Both the position numbers and the translations under genes were made by a program. Below are positions 1,189 through 8,041 of a stretch of 55,590 nt of DNA, piece by piece; the stretch's first letter is position 1, and each line of letters starts with the position of its first letter. The stretch is from assembly GCA_900316475.1 (NCBI GenBank), contig ONDA01000019.1, positions 1 through 55,590 of the forward strand, written 5' to 3'. The DNA comes from an uncultured Prevotellaceae bacterium (lineage in GTDB: Bacteria; Bacteroidota; Bacteroidia; Bacteroidales; Bacteroidaceae). Under the pieces are notes generated by a model. That model searched no databases. It saw only the letters and a program-made list of their open reading frames with translations, and was not told the origin of the DNA.

Positions 1189-1427
1189 GCAGCCCTCCCC
1201 TGTGAGCTTCCCCGAGCAGGGGAGTTTGCGCCCTTCTGGACCTATCCCCACAAACAATACTGCACACGTGCGCTTGCGTCGTGCAGCCAAGGAAATGTCA
1301 TTAAGCGAAATGACATTGGTTAGAAATTAATAAAAAATTCATCGACTCCACCGTACGTGAGTATCGTGGAGTTTTCTATCGAAAACAACTAAAACAAGAT
1401 TTAGGTCGAAGACCCTATTGTGCACTT
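1189..1427. other. Intergenic segment with two hairpins, no gene
   Basis: No ORF is supported. AATGTCATT at about 1295-1303 is followed by an inverted copy a few bases on. CTCCAC near 1346 pairs with GTGGAG near 1367, followed by TTTT, which could act as a terminator. The last part (from about 1404) is shared with the DNA just before the third cassette at about 6150. Confidence 0.4.
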
Positions 1428-1506
1428 GGTATAGTGGGCCACGATGCGCGGAAACGGGACGGGAATGGAGAAAAGTTAACGCGTTAACTTTTCTTTGTTT
1501 TTTTTT

Positions 1507-1537
1507 TTTGAAATTAACGCCGGATTGATTACCTTTG
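1507..1537 (+). promoter_or_regulatory. Consensus promoter of cassette 1
   Basis: TTTG at 1507-1510, a 19-nt spacer and TACCTTTG at 1530-1537 match the Bacteroidota consensus exactly. The -33 TTTG is the end of the T-tract that follows the 24-bp palindrome, so a protein bound to the palindrome would sit just upstream of RNA polymerase. Expected RNA start is near 1544, leaving a leader of about 95 nt. Confidence 0.85.
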
Positions 1538-1569
1538 CCGATATTTTTGTCTACGAACAATTCGGAGAC

Positions 1570-1602
1570 ATGATAAATATACTACATGAAATGTGTGTTT
1601 AA
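1570..1602 (+). CDS. Conserved 10-aa upstream ORF, cassette 1
   Basis: ATG to TAA encodes MINILHEMCV. The same 33 bases occur in the leaders of all three cassettes (3589, 6326), each preceded by GGAGAC, which is a Shine-Dalgarno-like sequence and unusual for this phylum. It starts 69 nt before the short peptide gene. It may control translation of the downstream genes. The surrounding leader is equally conserved, so coding is not proven. Confidence 0.4.
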   Translation: MINILHEMCV

Positions 1603-1638
1603 TAACAATATTACTAATTAATTTAATGATAAACAAAC

Positions 1639-1770
1639 ATGAAAAGAAAAAAGTATGAAAGGCCGACGATGCAGGTCGTCGAAGTGAAACAACAGGCACA
1701 GTTGCTGGCTGGTAGTGCCCCCAATCAGGCAAGTATCGATGACTATAAGGACGGCGAGTTCTCATGGTAA
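1639..1770 (+). CDS. Short peptide with constant start and variable tail, cassette 1 (43 aa)
   Basis: The 43-residue product starts MKRKKYERPTMQVVEVKQQ and then has the motif LLAGS (residues 22-26). After that the sequence is unlike the peptides of cassettes 2 and 3, ending in an acidic stretch and Trp. There is no signal peptide. The stop lies 19 nt before the lipoprotein gene, and the promoter is about 100 nt upstream. Short proteins of this general form (basic start, Tyr-x-x-Pro, LL-Gly-Ser) are common in Prevotellaceae as I remember them but have no known function. The conserved-leader, Gly-Ser, variable-tail layout is like a peptide precursor. That reading is inference. Confidence 0.7.
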   Translation: MKRKKYERPTMQVVEVKQQAQLLAGSAPNQASIDDYKDGEFSW

Positions 1771-1789
1771 GTAATAACCCTTTAAACAG

Positions 1790-2587
1790 ATGAAGACAAT
1801 GAAGAAATACATCTTTATGGCTGTGGCAGGTATGCTTGCACTCAGCAGTTGCTCGAACGACGACAACGACGTACAGAATACACAGAACGCTCCCCGACAG
1901 ATGACCTTCACCGCTGGCTTTGGTGACGAGGCTCAGACCCGCGCCGCGTTGGATGGCTCCACCAAGAAGGTCAGCTTCGAAACTGGCGATGACATCAGCA
2001 TCCTCAGCGCCAATAATACCAACACGAAGTTCAGCACCACGGAGGACGGCGCATCGGTCACGTTCACAGGTACGGCTACGGCCGACTCGAAGTTCTATTC
2101 CGTCTATCCCTACACCGACGGCCTGACTCTCGCCCCCAGCACCGGCATCATCTCAGGCGTGGAAATTCCCATGAGTCAGTTTGACGCTGCCGGGTCAACC
2201 TGTGGTTGGGACGAAAGAGCCCCCATCGCCTATGCCACCACCGATGACACGAACCTTCAGTTCCACAATGCTTGCGCCTTGCTTAAAATAACTAACGACA
2301 AAGGTGATGCTATATTGATTGAAGTAGGGTGTAATGAAGCATTGACAGGAAAATTCTCCCTCAATACTTCGAACGGGGCACTAACAGGTATAAAGACCGA
2401 ACGTTCTGCGTCGGTAGAGTCTGTGCCTCTTAATAAAACGATATATATTGCCATCGCACCGGGTACGAAGACTGGTTTCATGGCTACTTGGTTGGGGAAG
2501 GACTATTCTTATGCAGCGAAAGAGAAATCTTCCTTCACCTTCGAGGCAGGTAAGATTTACGACTTAGGTAATACGAGTGCATGGTGA
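1790..2587 (+). CDS. Fimbrillin family surface lipoprotein (265 aa)
   Basis: The N-terminus has a lipoprotein signal with lipobox LSSC (Cys21), followed by an Asp/Asn-rich linker. The mature part has fimbrillin-like signatures: QMTFTAGF, then TRA near residue 50, then the YSVYPYTD strand, and it ends with FEAGKIYDLG, the usual C-terminal strand. At 265 residues it is short for the family. An in-frame ATG at 1799 is an alternative start that would still give a lipoprotein. It follows the 43-aa peptide gene by 19 nt and is the payload of cassette 1. Likely exported to the outer surface as a pilus-like or adhesive subunit; which one is not known. Confidence 0.75.
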   Translation: MKTMKKYIFMAVAGMLALSSCSNDDNDVQNTQNAPRQMTFTAGFGDEAQTRAALDGSTKKVSFETGDDISILSANNTNTKFSTTEDGASVTFTGTATADSKFYSVYPYTDGLTLAPSTGIISGVEIPMSQFDAAGSTCGWDERAPIAYATTDDTNLQFHNACALLKITNDKGDAILIEVGCNEALTGKFSLNTSNGALTGIKTERSASVESVPLNKTIYIAIAPGTKTGFMATWLGKDYSYAAKEKSSFTFEAGKIYDLGNTSAW

Positions 2588-2603
2588 TGAGCATTAAGCG
2601 AGT

Positions 2604-2726
2604 AAAAAAAATCGGGTCGGTTCTCTGACCGAGGTCAGAGTGTGGCTACGCAATCTCTCTTCGAGAGTGTGGCGTTGCAATCTCTGACCGAGGTCAGAGT
2701 GTGGCTTCGCAATCTTGATGATCCAC
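2604..2726. repeat. Tandem hairpin array of three units
   Basis: After the lipoprotein gene come three short units, each a small hairpin plus a constant tail AGTGTGGCNNNGCAAT. Loops alternate: CTCTGACC/GGTCAGAG, then CTCTCTTCGAGAG, then CTCTGACC/GGTCAGAG. The array starts with AAATCGGGTCGGTT and ends with GATGATCCAC. The same array with only two units follows cassette 3 (7759-7846), so unit number has changed between copies. Confidence 0.75.
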
Positions 2727-2747
2727 TTTTTTAAAAGAATAAAACAG

Positions 2748-2783
2748 GAAACGGAAGTCGTCAATCGCGGCTTCCGTTTCTTT
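2748..2783 (+). terminator. Hairpin terminator after cassette 1
   Basis: GAAACGGAAG (2748-2757) pairs perfectly with CTTCCGTTTC (2771-2780), followed by TTT. Placed 160 nt after the lipoprotein stop, it probably ends the cassette transcript. Confidence 0.65.
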
Positions 2784-2823
2784 GAGGTAACACGGGGCCT
2801 GCCTCCTGTGCGATTAATACAGA

Positions 2824-2862
2824 GCCTCCTCCTGCGGAAATGCAACGGGGAGGCTTTTTTTT
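2824..2862 (+). terminator. GCCTCC/GGAGGC terminator with T8
   Basis: GCCTCC (2824-2829) pairs with GGAGGC (2849-2854) and is followed by eight T. The 60-bp block around it, beginning CCTCCTGTGCGATTAATACA, is repeated at 3311-3370 with one base change in the loop. Between the two copies lies the decayed DUF6169 unit. Confidence 0.7.
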
Positions 2863-2904
2863 GCGCACAGATCCCACAGATCCCACAGATTTTTGTGGTA
2901 TTGT

Positions 2905-2936
2905 TTTGGCGGTGTTAGATATTATTCGTATCTTTG
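2905..2936 (+). promoter_or_regulatory. Promoter of the second short ORF/DUF6169 unit
   Basis: TTTG at 2905-2908 and TATCTTTG at 2929-2936 with a 20-nt spacer match the Bacteroidota consensus. Just upstream, the 9-nt unit ATCCCACAG is repeated in tandem at about 2872-2899. Confidence 0.75.
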
Positions 2937-2964
2937 CATGCAGAAAACGTAAAAATGTACGGTT

Positions 2965-3099
2965 ATGGAAGCAAAGAGAACAACGCAACAGGTTATCGAC
3001 TGGCTTAAGGCCGCCGAGAAGCGACAGCAGGACTGGCAGCAGGAGGTGAAGAAACGCTGGGCTGAGAAGAAACAGCCGAAAATAGTAGCTACAGTATGA
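2965..3099 (+). CDS. Short helical protein (44 aa), relative of the 224-355 product
   Basis: The ORF starts MEAKRTTQQVIDWLK and encodes 44 residues rich in Lys, Arg, Gln and Trp. It resembles the 43-residue product at 224 in length, in the DW/EW pattern followed by V, R and E, and in ending as ATGA on a DUF6169-type start. It keeps a good promoter and an intact frame although its partner gene is broken. If the pair is toxin-antitoxin-like, loss of the larger gene with retention of the small one is the expected decay path, but this is inference. Confidence 0.6.
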   Translation: MEAKRTTQQVIDWLKAAEKRQQDWQQEVKKRWAEKKQPKIVATV

Positions 3100-3276
3100 A
3101 GCAGTTAAATATCGACCGCATCAACGCCAAGGCGCCCTATAAGGTAAGCGAGGACGGCAAGCAACTGGTGATTCTTTGCCGCCATCATTGTGGAGAACCG
3201 CAACCCGCTGCTGACCGACATTACTGCCGACTTCGACCAGACGGCAGTTTCGCTAACGAACAAGCCTAGCGAATAA
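3096..3276 (+). pseudogene. Remnant of a DUF6169-like gene (internal deletion and frameshift)
   Basis: The first frame starts MKQLNIDRINAKAPYKV, which parallels MRLSADRINRKSPYWV of the intact gene at 352, and stops after 57 codons at 3269. In another frame the end of the segment reads VENRNPLLTDITADFDQTAV and stops at 3276, paralleling the intact C-terminus around MILRNDHPEYDELLTAY. So the ends survive while about 90 central codons are missing, and the junction is out of frame near 3175-3190. The short ORF upstream is intact. Confidence 0.75.
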
Positions 3277-3332
3277 ATTAGCATTTAGAATTGACACACG
3301 GGCATAGCCCCCTCCTGTGCGATTAATACAGA

Positions 3333-3370
3333 GCCTCCTCCTGCGGAAATGCAGCGGGGAGGCTTTTTTT
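3333..3370 (+). terminator. GCCTCC/GGAGGC terminator, second copy
   Basis: GCCTCC (3333-3338) pairs with GGAGGC (3358-3363), followed by seven T. It ends the decayed DUF6169 unit and is a duplicate of the block at 2812-2862. Confidence 0.7.
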
Positions 3371-3525
3371 GCGCGAGGATTAAAGGTTTTGTGTCAAAAA
3401 ATTATAAAATCAGAAGGTGTTTGGACGTGTTCTATATATATAATATGGTATAGTGGGCCACGATGCGCGGAAACGGGACGGGAATGGAGAAAAGTTAACG
3501 CGTTAACTTTTCTTATTTTTTTTTT

Positions 3526-3556
3526 TTTGAAATTAACGCCGGAATGATTACCTTTG
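3526..3556 (+). promoter_or_regulatory. Consensus promoter of cassette 2
   Basis: TTTG at 3526-3529 and TACCTTTG at 3549-3556 with a 19-nt spacer. Same placement behind palindrome and T-tract as in cassette 1. Confidence 0.85.
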
Positions 3557-3588
3557 CCAATGTTTTTGTCTACGAACAATTCGGAGAC

Positions 3589-3621
3589 ATGATAAATATA
3601 CTACATGAAATGTGTGTTTAA
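3589..3621 (+). CDS. Conserved 10-aa upstream ORF, cassette 2
   Basis: Identical 33 bases to 1570-1602, encoding MINILHEMCV after GGAGAC. See copy 1 for the possible role; coding is not proven. Confidence 0.4.
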   Translation: MINILHEMCV

Positions 3622-3657
3622 TAACAATATTGCTAATTAATTTAATGATTAACAAAC

Positions 3658-3804
3658 ATGAAAAGAAAAGAGTATGAAAGGCCGACGATGGATGTCGTCG
3701 AAGTGAAACAACAGGCACAGTTGCTGGCCGGAAGCGTAGGAGTTTCACGTGGAGATACCTATGGTGTTGCAATTGAAGACACTTGGTTAGAAGATTTTGG
3801 TTAG
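3658..3804 (+). CDS. Short peptide with constant start and variable tail, cassette 2 (48 aa)
   Basis: The product starts MKRKEYERPTMDVVEVKQQ and has LLAGS at residues 22-26, as in cassette 1. The following 22 residues are new (Gly, Asp and Trp rich, ending LEDFG). The first 78 bases differ from cassette 1 at only a few positions, and then similarity stops. The stop is 21 nt before the lipoprotein gene. The uneven conservation argues that the first half has a shared partner or processing step and the second half is specific to each cassette. Confidence 0.7.
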   Translation: MKRKEYERPTMDVVEVKQQAQLLAGSVGVSRGDTYGVAIEDTWLEDFG

Positions 3805-3825
3805 AAGATTAAGGAGGACACGACT

Positions 3826-6033
3826 ATGAAGAAGAATATTTTCAATATCAAGACTCTGGCCGCCCTGCTGATGGCAGGAGCCGCCTTCACCGCTTGCTCT
3901 AACGAAGATGATTTTATCAAGGAGCAACCAGTTAATCCCACACAGAAGTATATCATGACCGTCAATGCCACGAAGGGCGACGATGCCACGACCCGCGGAC
4001 TCTCGCTCAGCGGCAAGACGCTCAGCGCCAAATGGGCTGCCACCGACGAGGTGAGCGTTTTCCCTGAGGCTTGGAGTTCCACCACAACACTTACGCCGAT
4101 TGGTACGCTGAGGGCAGCTGCCAGCGACAATGGCTCGACCTCGCTGACGGGCGACCTAACTACCGCCCCGACGGCTGGCGACAATCTGAAACTGCTGTTC
4201 CCCCGCGCCACGTGGGACTATACCGGACAGACTGGCATGCTGCTCAGCGATGCTAACTCAATTGAGAAGAAGTACGACTACGCACTGGCCGAGGTCGAGG
4301 TCAAAGAGGTTGACGGCAACACGATTACCACCACCGCTGATGCCAGCTTCGAGAGCCAGCAGGCCATTGTGAAGTTCAATCTGCAGGATGCCGGTGGTAG
4401 CGCCATCAATGCTACAAGCCTTAAAATATATGCCAATGGTGGCCAGTTGGTGCAGAGCCGTGGCATGAAGAAGACTTATACCCCCACAGGATGGGAGCCC
4501 GTCAGCGGCGAGAACAAGTATTATGTCTATATCGAGACGAATTGGGCGATTGACAATGGTGGTACAAATGTAGAAGGTTATGATGGTGAATATCACATTC
4601 CTTTCCAATTAGATGGAGATTACGGCACTAACGGCTGTCAGGTGGTGGGCGGCAAATATGTCTATCGTTTCGTTTTTACAAAGGAGTATGATGGTAATGC
4701 ACCTACACAAATCAAATCTATAAGTTTATATTCCGCAGATAATTCTCATGGGATTTACTTCAGTGAGTATGATGAGGACACGCCAATCGCCTTCACTAAC
4801 GGCATGTATCTGCGTCAGTATGATCCTGACAGTGATCCAGAAACGGAAGATAAGGTACAGGAGGTTGCTGTCAAAGAGGGCACCCCCGTGATGGCTTCCA
4901 CCTATGGTGCACTGACTGTGACACCTGAATCTGCCGCCAGCGAGCTGACCGTAGCCCTGCGCAACGAGTTGGGCGCTGATACATACAGTTTCCTGGTCAA
5001 TGCGGATAATGGCAAGACCTATACTTTCTCAAAGTCGAATGTGAATTTCGAAAATGGCAAGTATTATGAAATCACCATGAAGATGACGGAGGCTCCACAG
5101 TACGTTGATCTCTCGACGAAAACAGCCAACTACGAGGCTCAGAACGGTGACGTGCTGACAGGCCAGTTGCCGAGCAACTATCAACTGACCATTGCCGCCA
5201 ATGCTAAGGTGACCCTCTTCAACGCCACTGTCAACTATGGGGGTTATGGTGGACCTGCTGTCAGCTGCCTTGGCGATGCAACGCTCGTGCTGAAGGGTTC
5301 AAACACCGTTACTTGCAACAGCTATCAGGGAGCTGGCATCACCCCAGCTGACGGTAAAACGCTCACCATCCAGGGCAACGGCATACTGAACGTTAATGGT
5401 AACGGAGATGAATGTATCGGTATCGGCTATCGCAATGGAGTTAATGGTACGGGTAACGTTGTCATCAACAGCGGTACCATCGTCATAAAAGCCAACTCGG
5501 CTGCTATCGGTGCTAAATACGGAAGTATCGGCGACATCACGATCAATGGCGGTAATGTCACGGCCTATGGTAAGGACTGGGCTGCCGCTATCGGCTGCGG
5601 CTATGAATCCACCTGTGGTAAAATTACCATCACCGGCGGCACCGTTACGGCTATTGGTAACGAATATGGCTGCACAGCTATCGGTACCGGTGGAGGTAGC
5701 TGTACCTGTGGCGACATCACCATCAGCGGTGGCACTGTGACGGCTACAGGCAATGGTGTTCAGTCGATTGGCGTAGTCGAAGGTACATGCAGCAAGGTGA
5801 CCATCACAACCGGCATCACCAGCCTGACAATGACTTCCAGCAATTATTATGGTTATGCTGGCAATGTTAGTGACTTCATCAAGGCTACGGCGGTCTATGC
5901 CAATTCGACGGATATTACCACAATGTTATCAACGAGTGTAACCGATGCAATGGTAACAACCGGAATGACAGCGGCTGGATTCGCAACCTCGTATAACGAA
6001 GGTACGAAGACGTGGACGGTCACTAAGAAATAG
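3826..6033 (+). CDS. Large fimbrillin-like lipoprotein with C-terminal beta-repeat domain (735 aa)
   Basis: A lipoprotein signal ends in the lipobox FTAC (Cys24). Residues about 40-420 are fimbrillin-like (TRGLSLSG near 60, then LLFPRATWDY, and a FENGKYYEI strand near 410). Residues about 430-650 form a repeat domain with units such as ITINGGNVTAYG, ITITGGTVTAIG and ITISGGTVTATG, each followed by an AIG-type turn. This is the pattern of a right-handed beta-helix seen in carbohydrate-binding domains of surface proteins. It has no enzyme motif that I recognise. It is the payload of cassette 2 and is almost three times as long as that of cassette 1. A surface adhesin or glycan-binding role is likely but inferred. 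Confidence 0.7.
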   Translation: MKKNIFNIKTLAALLMAGAAFTACSNEDDFIKEQPVNPTQKYIMTVNATKGDDATTRGLSLSGKTLSAKWAATDEVSVFPEAWSSTTTLTPIGTLRAAASDNGSTSLTGDLTTAPTAGDNLKLLFPRATWDYTGQTGMLLSDANSIEKKYDYALAEVEVKEVDGNTITTTADASFESQQAIVKFNLQDAGGSAINATSLKIYANGGQLVQSRGMKKTYTPTGWEPVSGENKYYVYIETNWAIDNGGTNVEGYDGEYHIPFQLDGDYGTNGCQVVGGKYVYRFVFTKEYDGNAPTQIKSISLYSADNSHGIYFSEYDEDTPIAFTNGMYLRQYDPDSDPETEDKVQEVAVKEGTPVMASTYGALTVTPESAASELTVALRNELGADTYSFLVNADNGKTYTFSKSNVNFENGKYYEITMKMTEAPQYVDLSTKTANYEAQNGDVLTGQLPSNYQLTIAANAKVTLFNATVNYGGYGGPAVSCLGDATLVLKGSNTVTCNSYQGAGITPADGKTLTIQGNGILNVNGNGDECIGIGYRNGVNGTGNVVINSGTIVIKANSAAIGAKYGSIGDITINGGNVTAYGKDWAAAIGCGYESTCGKITITGGTVTAIGNEYGCTAIGTGGGSCTCGDITISGGTVTATGNGVQSIGVVEGTCSKVTITTGITSLTMTSSNYYGYAGNVSDFIKATAVYANSTDITTMLSTSVTDAMVTTGMTAAGFATSYNEGTKTWTVTKK

Positions 6034-6066
6034 TAACACGGGGAAAAGACCCCTCTAAATAACTTC

Positions 6067-6091
6067 GGGAGCCTTCGGGCTCCCTTTTTTT
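6067..6091 (+). terminator. Strong terminator after cassette 2
   Basis: GGGAGCC (6067-6073) pairs with GGCTCCC (6078-6084) across a short loop and is followed by seven T. The same hairpin and the following GTCGGCAGGA occur after cassette 3 (7886-7913). Confidence 0.85.
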
Positions 6092-6262
6092 GTCGGCAGG
6101 ATTTGAGTGCACAGCGAGTGCACAGCGGATTGCAACGCCACACTTCGTACCTTTAGGTCGAAGAACCGACCCTATTGTGCACTTGGTATAGTGGGCCACG
6201 ATGCGCGGAAACGGGACGGGAATGGAGAAAAGTTAACGCGTTAACTTTTCTTCATTTTTTTT

Positions 6263-6293
6263 TTTGAAATTAACACCGGATTGATTACCTTTG
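6263..6293 (+). promoter_or_regulatory. Consensus promoter of cassette 3
   Basis: TTTG at 6263-6266 and TACCTTTG at 6286-6293 with a 19-nt spacer, again directly behind the T-tract. Confidence 0.85.
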
Positions 6294-6325
6294 CCGATGT
6301 TTTTGTCTACGAACAATTCGGAGAC

Positions 6326-6358
6326 ATGATAAATATACTACATGAAATGTGTGTTTAA
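6326..6358 (+). CDS. Conserved 10-aa upstream ORF, cassette 3
   Basis: Same MINILHEMCV coding stretch after GGAGAC as in the other two leaders; 70 nt before the short peptide gene here. Confidence 0.4.
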   Translation: MINILHEMCV

Positions 6359-6395
6359 TAACAATATTGCTAATTTAGTTTAATGATTAACAAAC

Positions 6396-6527
6396 ATGAA
6401 AAGAAAAAAGTATGAAAGGCCGACGATGCAGGTCGTCGAGTTGCAACACCAATGCCAGATTCTGGCTGGTAGCAATGGCCAAGCCGGAGTGCAGGACTAT
6501 AATTGGAATAATAAAGTTCCAGAGTAA
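6396..6527 (+). CDS. Short peptide with constant start and variable tail, cassette 3 (43 aa)
   Basis: It starts MKRKKYERPTMQVVELQHQC and has ILAGS at residues 22-26. The tail is again unrelated to the others, with Trp, Asn and an ending of KVPE. It carries the only Cys among the three peptides (residue 20). Its stop lies 25 nt before the next lipoprotein gene. The first 45 bases are almost the same as in copy 1, and differences begin at the codon for residue 15. Confidence 0.7.
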   Translation: MKRKKYERPTMQVVELQHQCQILAGSNGQAGVQDYNWNNKVPE

Positions 6528-6552
6528 TTAACCCACAAAAACGAAGAAAGCA

Positions 6553-7758
6553 ATGAAGACAAAGAAATTTCTTAGCATGGCCGCCCTCGCACTGGTGGGT
6601 GCCATGATGACCGGCTGCTCTAGCGATGAAGACTTTAGCAATCCGCAGCAGCCCGAGAACAAGAACAACCTAGTAACCCTGACCACCACCGTAGGCTTCG
6701 ACGATGCCGCCGGAACAACCCGCGCACTCAGCAGCACGGGCGTGAAAACCTTTGCCGCAGGCGAGACGATGGCCGTGATTTACTATAACGGAACATCTAT
6801 AGTAAAAGCTGTGAGCCATGCCCTCGAAGCTGGCGATATCACCAATGAAGGCAAGAATGCAACCTTTACTTTCGATCTCGAAACTCCCAGTAAAAGTGGT
6901 AGCGTACTCTACATCTATCCCGCTGCAATGGCTGGTGAAACGGGGGTTGACATAACCAAGCTCAACACGCAGGAAGGCACGTTCGATGCTCTTCAAAGCA
7001 AATACGACCTCTGCACGAATTTTGGCGATTGGGACGGTGACAACCTGCCCTCGCTGACGCTTGAGAACCTTCTCGCCATCCTGGCCATCAACCTTAAGAA
7101 CGGCAGCACCGACATCACCAGCACCATCACGGACATGACCATCAGCGATGGCACGAACACCTACAACGTCAGCCGCGAGGCAGCCGCAGGCCCCATCTAC
7201 GTGGCCATCCAACCCACGTCCGGTGCTACCATCGAGGTTACCGCCACCGACGGCACCGATGACTACGTCAAGACATTGTCCGGCAAGACCTATGCAGCCG
7301 GCAACGGCTATAACGTCACCTGGAACATGACTAAGTTGCCCAAAGTGACGTGGAACAGCACGAATGTGTTCAAAGAAGATAACCAGAATGTCGAGCTTGA
7401 TCAATGGCACACGACTCCCCTCAATTATGAAGAAATTACGATTTCGTTTAGCGGAACTAGTGTCAGCAAGTTTAGCCCTTACTCCCCTGGAACGGGTGAT
7501 GCAGTCCTCATTTGTTTTGGAGGTGATGGCGACTCATTTACCTTCACGGCGCCGTCAGGCAAGAAGTTCACCAAGATTGAGATAATCGATAATTCTCATG
7601 TCGTCTTTGATGCATACGGTGACTGGACACAGCCGGTGGATGATGATACGAAAATCGTATGGCGCGGTACTCCTGCAAGTACAGTGACGCTGGGCGGTTC
7701 TGAGAGTACATTCGCTTATGACCTCAACAGCATCGTGTTCACACTGAAAGATGAGTAA
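6553..7758 (+). CDS. Fimbrillin-like lipoprotein (401 aa)
   Basis: The signal ends with lipobox MTGC (Cys22). A fimbrillin-type first domain follows (VTLTTTVGFDD, TRALSSTG near 57, VLYIYPAAM near 120, YVAIQP near 217). A second domain from about 265 has alternating strands and a WRGTPASTVTLGG segment near the end. No enzyme motif is visible. It shares overall plan with the payloads of cassettes 1 and 2, but the sequences have diverged far more than their control regions. Probably exported and surface-exposed. The array of small hairpins and a strong terminator follow. Confidence 0.7.
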   Translation: MKTKKFLSMAALALVGAMMTGCSSDEDFSNPQQPENKNNLVTLTTTVGFDDAAGTTRALSSTGVKTFAAGETMAVIYYNGTSIVKAVSHALEAGDITNEGKNATFTFDLETPSKSGSVLYIYPAAMAGETGVDITKLNTQEGTFDALQSKYDLCTNFGDWDGDNLPSLTLENLLAILAINLKNGSTDITSTITDMTISDGTNTYNVSREAAAGPIYVAIQPTSGATIEVTATDGTDDYVKTLSGKTYAAGNGYNVTWNMTKLPKVTWNSTNVFKEDNQNVELDQWHTTPLNYEEITISFSGTSVSKFSPYSPGTGDAVLICFGGDGDSFTFTAPSGKKFTKIEIIDNSHVVFDAYGDWTQPVDDDTKIVWRGTPASTVTLGGSESTFAYDLNSIVFTLKDE

Positions 7759-7846
7759 AAAAATCGGGTCGGTTCTCTCTTCGAGAGTGTGGCGTTGCAA
7801 TCTCTGACCGAGGTCAGAGTGTGGCTTCGCAATCTAGATGATCCAC
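7759..7846. repeat. Tandem hairpin array of two units
   Basis: A shorter version of 2604-2726: the same AAATCGGGTCGGTT start, one CTCTCTTCGAGAG unit, one CTCTGACC/GGTCAGAG unit and the GATGATCCAC end. One unit is missing compared with the array after cassette 1. Confidence 0.75.
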
Positions 7847-7885
7847 GGTTACAGCCCCTCTGATACAAGAGAAATGTATAAATCG

Positions 7886-7913
7886 GGGAGCCTTCGGGCT
7901 CCCTGTTTTTTTT
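7886..7913 (+). terminator. Strong terminator after cassette 3
   Basis: GGGAGCC/GGCTCCC stem with a short loop, then TG and eight T. Nearly the same as 6067-6091. Confidence 0.85.
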
Positions 7914-7945
7914 GTCGGCAGGACTTAGGTCGTTGGGCGGTTGTT

Positions 7946-8025
7946 ATCTGTATGACAACAAGATGCAAGTAATTTCTACTGTTAAATATGGATACGAATA
8001 CATATGATTAACTTAACACCCTAGG
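7946..8025. mobile_element. Truncated copy of the 237-bp element (right 80 bp)
   Basis: Matches 1109-1188 with a single mismatch and is in the same orientation, ending in TTAACTTAACACCCTAGG. The left part and left terminal repeat are absent. The last 18 bp therefore form the inner half of the inverted repeat with 952-969. Confidence 0.8.
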
Positions 8026-8041
8026 TCTGTCCCCGTGTGCT
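8008..8041. repeat. Right arm of the inverted repeat bounding the cassette island
   Basis: Reverse complement of 937-970, extending beyond the element end through GTCTGTCCCCGTGTGCT. Because the match continues past the element border on both sides, the two ends share more than the mobile element alone. The 8042-8160 stretch after it holds no feature that I can support. Confidence 0.75.

Follow-up and report, generated by a model that had tools for sequence, protein, structure and literature searches.

Within a 55,590-nt stretch of DNA from an uncultured Prevotellaceae bacterium (contig ONDA01000019.1 of assembly GCA_900316475.1; the window), three cassettes on the + strand (1428-2587, 3447-6033 and 6185-7758) each carry a small peptide gene and a lipoprotein gene behind a repeated control region. 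Judging from sequence comparison, we regard it as reasonably probable that each cassette pairs a precursor of a ribosomally synthesised and post-translationally modified peptide (RiPP) of the linear polyphosphorylated peptide (LPP) type with its own fimbrillin-like surface lipoprotein, and that these orphan precursors are matured in trans. This reading builds on the mosaic structure of the cassettes, selection on the peptides, the size of the peptide family, its operon linkage to maturation-type genes in a few relatives, its co-occurrence with a RiPP recognition element (RRE) protein, and the linkage between peptide tail and lipoprotein.

All three cassettes follow one order, namely a palindrome with a T-rich run, a promoter-like element, a 5' untranslated region (UTR) of ~100 nt, the peptide gene and the lipoprotein gene (Table 1). 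The first-pass annotation of this DNA had described a 211-bp module recurring three times at a constant distance before a peptide gene, and the coordinates are exact: modules starting at 1428, 3447 and 6185 are followed exactly 211 bp on by the peptide ATGs at 1639, 3658 and 6396. The conserved block, present three times, spans ~290 bp (the 211 bp upstream plus 26 codons), and over module and leader (288 bp) copy 1 shares 96% identity with copy 2 (E 5e-132) and 93% with copy 3 (E 7e-121). The near-identity of the leaders likewise held, with 24/26 residues of peptide 2 and 21/26 of peptide 3 the same as in peptide 1. The peptides are 43, 48 and 43 aa long and the lipoproteins 265, 735 and 401 aa, separated by gaps of 19, 21 and 25 nt in cassettes 1, 2 and 3; the lipoproteins are, as noted earlier, far more diverged than the control region.

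Pairwise alignment revealed a sharp drop in identity after LLAGS, as the same annotation had anticipated: leaders agree at 81-92%, the sequence past codon 26 at 35-37%, and the 180 nt upstream are 95-98% identical within the window. The leaders of cassettes 1 and 2 share 92% and the following 60 nt 37%; for cassettes 2 and 3 the values are 81% and 37%, and for cassettes 1 and 3 they are 95-97% upstream, 86% in the leader and 35% in the next 60 nt. The tails had been called unrelated, which is true among the three window peptides and false beyond the window, where tail homologues occur that track the lipoprotein type. Tail 1 recurs on contig C10 of the same genome and at loci L113/L114, tail 3 recurs on own-genome C34 and at L115/L116/L125/L151, tail 2 resembles L118/L120/L128, and wherever the downstream gene was at hand the same lipoprotein type comes next. 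A view of the tails as random sequence was dropped, since they recur with their own lipoprotein types elsewhere.

Similarity of the upstream part and of the downstream part conflict with each other. Between cassette 1 and its C10 counterpart, identity is 42-50% upstream, 77% in the tail and 75-95% across lipoprotein windows; between cassette 3 and its C34 counterpart it is 38-58% upstream, 78% in the tail, 92% at the lipoprotein start and 52-78% later, and at L116 the leader of cassette 2, identical in amino acids, is joined to a type III tail. A search of 398 genomes of the genus for the 211-bp module (own genome included, best two candidates scored per genome) gave matches at E<=1e-8 in 16/398, own included. 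Four other genomes hold a nearly full module (94-95% identity over 183-211 nt), always ahead of the same leader; two of them carry tail type III, one type II and one a further kind (GLGNPEDYPNGGNPFA), which makes three tail/lipoprotein kinds. The remaining 11 carry a partial module, mostly the palindrome/promoter half; where the gene behind it was seen, this was another peptide, a lipoprotein or some other gene.

We also collected 100 family peptides (101 found, one spurious, L163, removed), of which 52 have both a lipobox-like neighbour, by a loose pattern, and a tail of >=6 residues. Among these, peptides with similar tails tend to have similar lipoproteins: a Mantel test of the two distances gave r 0.67, or 0.65 with the leader partialled out, at p 0.0005, the lowest value that 2000 permutations allow. 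Such a linkage is partly expected from physical closeness. For leader distance the correlation with lipoprotein distance is weaker (0.33, partial 0.26; p 0.0005). Close linkage accounts for the co-inheritance of tail and lipoprotein; it does not account for the retention of a tail constrained in its amino acids. From the recurrences and the Mantel results together we define a head (control region plus leader) and a payload (tail plus lipoprotein) with the border at LLAGS, and the comparisons support recombination of the two as blocks at that boundary. The payload swapping proposed earlier is in line with a module that precedes differing tail/lipoprotein kinds, and module and payload do not always follow one history, as far as identity comparisons rather than a formal tree can tell; beside swapping, gene conversion may have homogenised the head within the window. 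A second array like that of the window lies at L105 (C28 of genome G127), a 6.7-kb contig with three peptide-lipoprotein pairs in tandem.

Selection on the leader was measured on seven module copies from five genomes (three in the window, four elsewhere). The leader has pS 0.27 and pN 0.09 (differences per synonymous and nonsynonymous site, respectively). By tail type, tail pN/pS is 0.44 for type I, 0.59 for type III and 0.68 for a further type; this purifying selection on leader and tails supports a translated peptide. Ahead of the ATG, ~105 aligned nt differ by only 0.038 per site among the same seven copies, far below the synonymous sites of the leader, so that the 5'UTR is under a constraint of its own. 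This strong conservation, together with short open reading frames (ORFs) that in the window end 19-25 nt ahead of the lipoprotein, would also suit a regulatory upstream ORF, translated only to couple or control lipoprotein expression and yielding an unprocessed product. We hold that explanation to be distinctly improbable: the amino-acid constraint extends into the tail (pN/pS 0.44-0.68), 47/100 family members lack a following lipobox-like protein (contig ends included), members are located in RRE operons, and coupling gives no obvious reason for a YxxP motif and a Ser set a fixed distance apart.

The leaders define a family with the motif YxxPxM...LLxxS; in the window, Tyr6 and Pro9 occur in all three and position 11 is hydrophobic. 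None of the three peptides matches Pfam or NCBIfam at E<=1, the precursors on C34 and in genome G121 (see below) have no NCBIfam match, the leader profile gave a single, chance-like match in the PDB (E 0.58), and we found no published report of this leader peptide family in Bacteroidota in the open-licence literature. A 55-row leader profile has 23 matches in the own genome, and matches in 97/161 genomes of the family (E<=0.01) and in 7/247 genomes of an order-wide draw (E<=0.05). Named relatives are mostly rumen Prevotellaceae metagenome-assembled genomes, and among them are isolates of Xylanibacter ruminicola, Prevotella communis and P. lacticifex. Because the pattern used for the 100-peptide set requires a Ser (or Asn) close to where the leader stops, Ser invariance was judged only on 46 profile-found and 45/47 tblastn-found peptides. 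[YFH]xxP is present in 46/46 and 44/45 of these, respectively (one of the 44 being a spurious upstream YxxP), and Ser stands at +19/+20 from the Tyr in 46/46 and 42/44, a count that is partly circular as the seeds carried Ser. Variation rises after this Ser; leaders end mostly in GS, AS or TS, with no double-Gly end. The earlier scheme of constant leader, Gly-Ser and variable core keeps its leader and variable C-terminus; Gly-Ser is probably not a spacer, because the Ser is near-invariant and, by analogy, close to the position of the phosphorylated Ser3 of LPPs.

The motif also bears on whether each peptide instead serves its fimbrillin-like lipoprotein as an unmodified small partner, be it a chaperone, a plug or an immunity peptide, with a leader conserved through recent duplication and gene conversion only. 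Tail-lipoprotein co-variation and the nearly identical window heads would fit such a partner; the leader motif, conserved in 97/161 family genomes, reaches well beyond recent copies. No Sec signal is apparent by eye in the peptides, so that an unmodified surface partner would need another export route, and the RRE co-occurrence described next would be left unexplained. We give this explanation a low probability.

For the co-occurrence analysis, thresholds were E<=0.01 for the peptide and E<=0.001 for the RRE type, and the peptide and RRE draws, both for the family and for the order, were taken as the same sets because their sizes and listed genomes agree. The RRE type is present in 133/161 family genomes; 94 hold both, three the peptide only, 39 the RRE only and 25 neither (Fisher p 3.7e-9), and by genus the peptide-RRE association is 22/25 versus 0/5 (p 3.9e-4), although relatedness inflates these p-values and phylogeny was handled no further than genus. 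In the order set, own genome included, the RRE occurs in 6/7 peptide genomes versus 37/240 others (p 1.2e-4); the exception is G177 (peptide E 0.034), and the six include two weak peptide matches (G243, E 0.010; G301, E 0.045). Among 127 listed peptide positions outside the own genome, four lie <=4 kb from an RRE gene versus 0.42 expected (p 9e-4; RRE positions taken by eye among the matches listed, ~1.2 RRE genes per 2.9 Mb). Peptide-RRE linkage is above chance on this count, yet most precursors, those of the window included, are orphans; draft contigs hide some of the linkage.

Where linkage exists, the neighbouring genes resemble those described for LPPs (Popov et al., Nat Commun, May 2026; PMC13381572). 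According to that paper, the LPP gene set comprises an RRE, a signal-peptidase-like protease, an HprK-like kinase, a nucleoside triphosphate (NTP) transferase and an ATP-binding cassette (ABC) exporter; polyphosphorylation of core Ser3 depends on HprK, and cleavage of the leader on the RRE. In genome G414, a 34-aa precursor (MKKTYQKPEMEVV...LLDES) is followed on one strand by NTP_transf_5 (2.3e-40), an HprK-related gene (6e-7, below cut-off), S24 (4e-6), PqqD (2.7e-12) and ABC; in G121, likewise on one strand, an HprK-like gene (2.6e-4), an archaeal-type signal-peptidase-like gene (2.2e-7, below cut-off), PqqD (1.7e-10), NTP_transf_5 (1.9e-34) and ABC come in this order ahead of the peptide AYEKPSMQVYE...LMAHSS. 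All five gene kinds are present with these two peptides, and part of them with three more: G108 has the peptide with NTP_transf_5 (3e-43), an S24-like gene and PqqD, G082 the peptide with NTP_transf_5-like and S24-like genes, and G113 a run of PqqD (6e-14), a protein of which one part is weakly HprK-like and another weakly signal-peptidase-like, the peptide MKKEFLIPEVEVV...ITTSS and a lipoprotein. The window's own genome encodes an RRE (PqqD), a signal-peptidase-like protease and an HprK-like kinase on C59. The RRE assignment is supported by PDB matches of the profile to the solved lasso RREs TfuB1 (1.4e-5) and 9x90 chaperone (0.006); LppB is absent from its four PDB matches at E<=1. The protease assignment is supported by a model resembling LexA/UmuD and type I signal peptidases (an S24/S26-type fold) and by Ser42 and His80, invariant in 13/13 sequences and 38 residues apart, the Asp of a Ser-His-Asp triad not being placed.

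The same genome also holds, on C34 (L162 7649-16546), a RiPP-like cluster with three radical SAM proteins, PqqD, ABC, HprK-like, NTP_transf_5 and a weakly lasso-B2-like protein; its 47-aa precursor (MERKAYMKP..QGSGLYYTSLYYSLY.., QGSG, Tyr-rich core) lies between PqqD and the HprK-like gene. The window peptides could accordingly belong to another RRE-dependent RiPP class, lasso-like or radical-SAM-modified, and be matured by this cluster instead of the LPP-like C59 module; the composition of the cluster and the YMKP-leader precursor adjoining its PqqD speak for this, and lasso leaders also carry YxxP (PMC13381572, PMC12710340). We consider it unlikely, since a whole-genome search for PF13471 gave nothing at E<=0.001, the B2-like protein is below cut-offs, and the C34 precursor differs after YxxP and is absent from the own-genome leader-profile matches. 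Moreover, the RREs near LLAGS-type peptides (G414, G121 and G108, the last two being seeds) match the C59-seeded profile, which the C34 RRE does not at E<=0.001.

Several observations weigh against an LPP-type precursor matured in trans, in addition to the relatedness of the genomes and the physical closeness of tail and lipoprotein mentioned above. The window contains no RRE gene, own-genome PqqD matches lie on C34 and C59 only, and the window precursors stand outside any cluster of RRE, signal peptidase, HprK, NTP transferase and ABC genes. By eye, no peptide, NTP transferase or ABC gene adjoins the C59 module, whose HprK match is at E 0.0019 with no Pfam match, and HprK-like and signal-peptidase-like matches in general are below curated cut-offs. 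Three peptide genomes have no RRE match (G126, weak; G138; G442), just 4/127 listed peptide positions are within 4 kb of the RRE type, and the G450 peptide is on the strand opposite to its RRE locus. A pattern search of 30 PqqD loci of ~3 kb found no convincing peptide, nor did the RRE loci L198, L199, L200, L205 and L210-L212 yield one; L206-L209 were looked at by pattern scan only. Directly following lipobox-like proteins (-45 to +160 nt) were seen for 53/100 collected peptides, the other 47 having contig ends and other neighbours, and for 7/20 examined of the 23 own-genome peptides, and the peptide-lipoprotein pairing is therefore not universal. Finally, the window leader lacks the VLxHQxIxFET of LPPs and its Tyr-Ser spacing is 19-20 versus 18. 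With window peptides that lie outside any such cluster and a leader consensus unlike that of LPPs, we put strict LPP membership no higher than possible; we have fair confidence that the leader system works like that of LPPs, and these peptides are probably an LPP-type precursor family in Bacteroidota.

Under this LPP-type reading, the shared leader would serve as an address tag whose YxxP is bound by the discrete RRE (PqqD) protein encoded elsewhere, on C59, with C34 holding the second RRE cluster. A kinase would phosphorylate the near-invariant Ser26 of LL-A-G-S, and a protease would cut off the leader just before the Ser region, with A-G-S matching A1-Q2-S3 of LppA; we infer this cut site by analogy, a cut after the Ser being the alternative. 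An NTP transferase may extend the phosphate, and the ABC exporter would release a linear phosphopeptide. Recognition in this scheme needs the leader alone, which would leave the tails free to diversify, and head and payload would be exchanged as blocks. Because the tail co-varies with the lipoprotein, the mature peptide would most likely act with or on the lipoprotein at the cell surface. The earlier idea of a precursor paired with its own surface protein is retained in its precursor part, through the leader motif, the cis operons and the co-occurrence, and altered in that the tail belongs to the payload. As a tentative extension, which we think less likely than not, a modular peptide-adhesin code might exist, in which one set of RRE, kinase, protease and exporter serves tens of scattered precursors, each phosphopeptide is a dedicated ligand, plug or decoration of the adjoining fimbrillin-like lipoprotein, and shuffling of head and payload between loci and species re-equips the cell surface.

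Likeness to LPPs extends to the YxxP leader, a conserved N-terminus with a highly variable C-terminus, a Ser conserved close to where the leader stops, the five kinds of gene found in relatives and precursor length (43, 48 and 43 aa, inside the 35-200 aa of LPPs). S42 and H80 of the protease lie 38 residues apart, S29 and H68 of LppS 39, and the G113 locus adjoins, by eye, capsule-export-like genes, beside which LPP clusters often lie. LPPs, whose role PMC13381572 gives as unknown, are stated there to be restricted to Bacillota and have 1-3 precursors per cluster, whereas here the host is Bacteroidota, up to 23 precursors per genome are mostly in-trans orphans, pairing with fimbrillin-like lipoproteins is frequent, and head and payload are exchanged. 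Paeninodin- and pseudomycoidin-type lasso systems share the discrete PqqD/B1 RRE, the HprK-like kinase and the nucleotidyltransferase (PMC8498205, PMC7533575), the latter, in pseudomycoidin, transferring hexoses onto such a phosphate (PMC8498205), as well as leaders with YxxP or WxxP (PMC13381572). In contrast to them, no macrolactam cyclase or B2 was seen by eye in G121 and G414, the cis operons with the fullest gene sets (no PF00733 search was made), and the tails have no obvious lasso core. Bacteroidetocins and GG-leader RiPPs of peptidase-containing ABC transporters are also small Bacteroidales precursors with conserved leader and variable core (PMC10352776); they differ in the double-Gly leader end, and the G414 and G121 ABC proteins have no peptidase C39 match in Pfam scans. 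If our reading is right, the LPP family, described from Gram-positive bacteria, also occurs in Bacteroidota of gut and rumen, where it would be among the widespread RiPP-like systems (RRE type in 133/161 and peptides in 97/161 family genomes), a set of unannotated small genes is explained, and surface proteins offer the first functional hint for LPPs. Head/payload recombination would be a natural example of leader-directed modularity.

Table 1. Positions of the cassette features in the window.
Feature	Position	Strand	Basis or remarks
Control module 1 (upstream hairpin, promoter-like element, 5'UTR)	1428..1638	+	Repeat comparison, genus-wide module search
Control module 2	3447..3657	+	Repeat comparison, genus-wide module search
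Control module 3	6185..6395	+	Repeat comparison
26-bp perfect palindrome, then T-rich run	1469..1494	.	Identical copies 3488-3513, 6226-6251
Promoter-like element TTTTG...TTACCTTTGC	1506..1538	+	Copies 3525-3557, 6262-6294
5'UTR	1539..1638	+	Copies 3558-3657, 6295-6395
Precursor-like peptide 1, tail type I	1639..1770	+	Leader 1639-1716; candidate phospho-Ser codon 1714-1716
Precursor-like peptide 2, tail type II	3658..3804	+	Leader 3658-3735; candidate phospho-Ser codon 3733-3735
Precursor-like peptide 3, tail type III	6396..6527	+	Leader 6396-6473; candidate phospho-Ser codon 6471-6473
Fimbrillin-like lipoprotein 1	1790..2587 (start 1790 or 1799)	+	Weak family matches under the cut-offs; AlphaFold model
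Lipoprotein 2 (735 aa), beta-helix-like, C-terminal half rich in repeats	3826..6033	+	Beta_helix_3
Lipoprotein 3, Mfa1-family-like	6553..7758	+	NF038041

The AlphaFold model of lipoprotein 1 has a predicted local distance difference test (pLDDT) score of 68, with residues 1-58 at low confidence. Foldseek matched it to the Bacteroides adhesion proteins 3ufi (1.1e-8), 4k4k (2.8e-8) and 4dgu (1.1e-4), the template modelling (TM) score being about 0.5 for the match at 1.1e-8, and then to Mfa4 (E 0.005), in line with a fimbrillin-like protein. Lipoprotein 2 matches Beta_helix_3 (E 1e-5, 26.1 bits, below the cut-off of 27), and lipoprotein 3 matches NF038041 (E 1.2e-9, 38 bits, below the cut-off of 130) with no Pfam match. 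Likeness to type V pilins or fimbrillins (Mfa1, FimA) consists in the model fold of lipoprotein 1, the lipobox-like N-terminus and the weak Mfa1-family match of lipoprotein 3; we found no report, among open-licence papers, of a fimbrillin preceded by a dedicated RiPP-like peptide gene.

In the control module, we infer that the palindrome, whose third copy was also terminator-like in a separate scan, may act as an upstream terminator or as an operator. The promoter-like element resembles the Bacteroidetes -33/-7 consensus; its pattern has three matches and none in 100 shuffles, which is no independent test as it was derived from the same copies. An invertible promoter was rejected, the palindrome being the sole inverted repeat within the ranges scanned (1428-1560 and 3440-3560, with copy 3 outside). 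On own-genome C28 (L014 ~4510-4590) the palindrome and promoter half precedes a gene other than a leader peptide, and with similar cases in the genus-wide search this half may be a wider promoter unit. The conserved 5'UTR possibly has a function at the RNA level; over 1300-7900, Rfam gave six matches at E<=5, none close to the gathering score, and an exact 26-mer of the UTR had 0 matches in viral contigs. By eye, the 5'UTR at 1539-1638 contains short inverted repeats and tiny ORFs, e.g. ATGATAAATATACTACATGAAATGTGTGTTTAA.

Around the cassettes, a small gene pair at 224-858 encodes a 43-aa protein and a DUF6169 protein (Pfam E 4e-18), and between cassettes 1 and 2, at 2965-3269, lies a shorter and, by eye, apparently truncated relative of it. 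The array is preceded at 945-1195 by a stretch of ~250 bp like a miniature inverted-repeat transposable element, with 25-nt terminal inverted repeats (88% complementary), and an 88-nt part of its right portion recurs past the array at 7945-8032 with 95% identity. Repeats based on TCTCTGACCGAGGTCAGAGTGTGGC follow lipoproteins 1 and 3, at 2622-2726 and 7774-7846.

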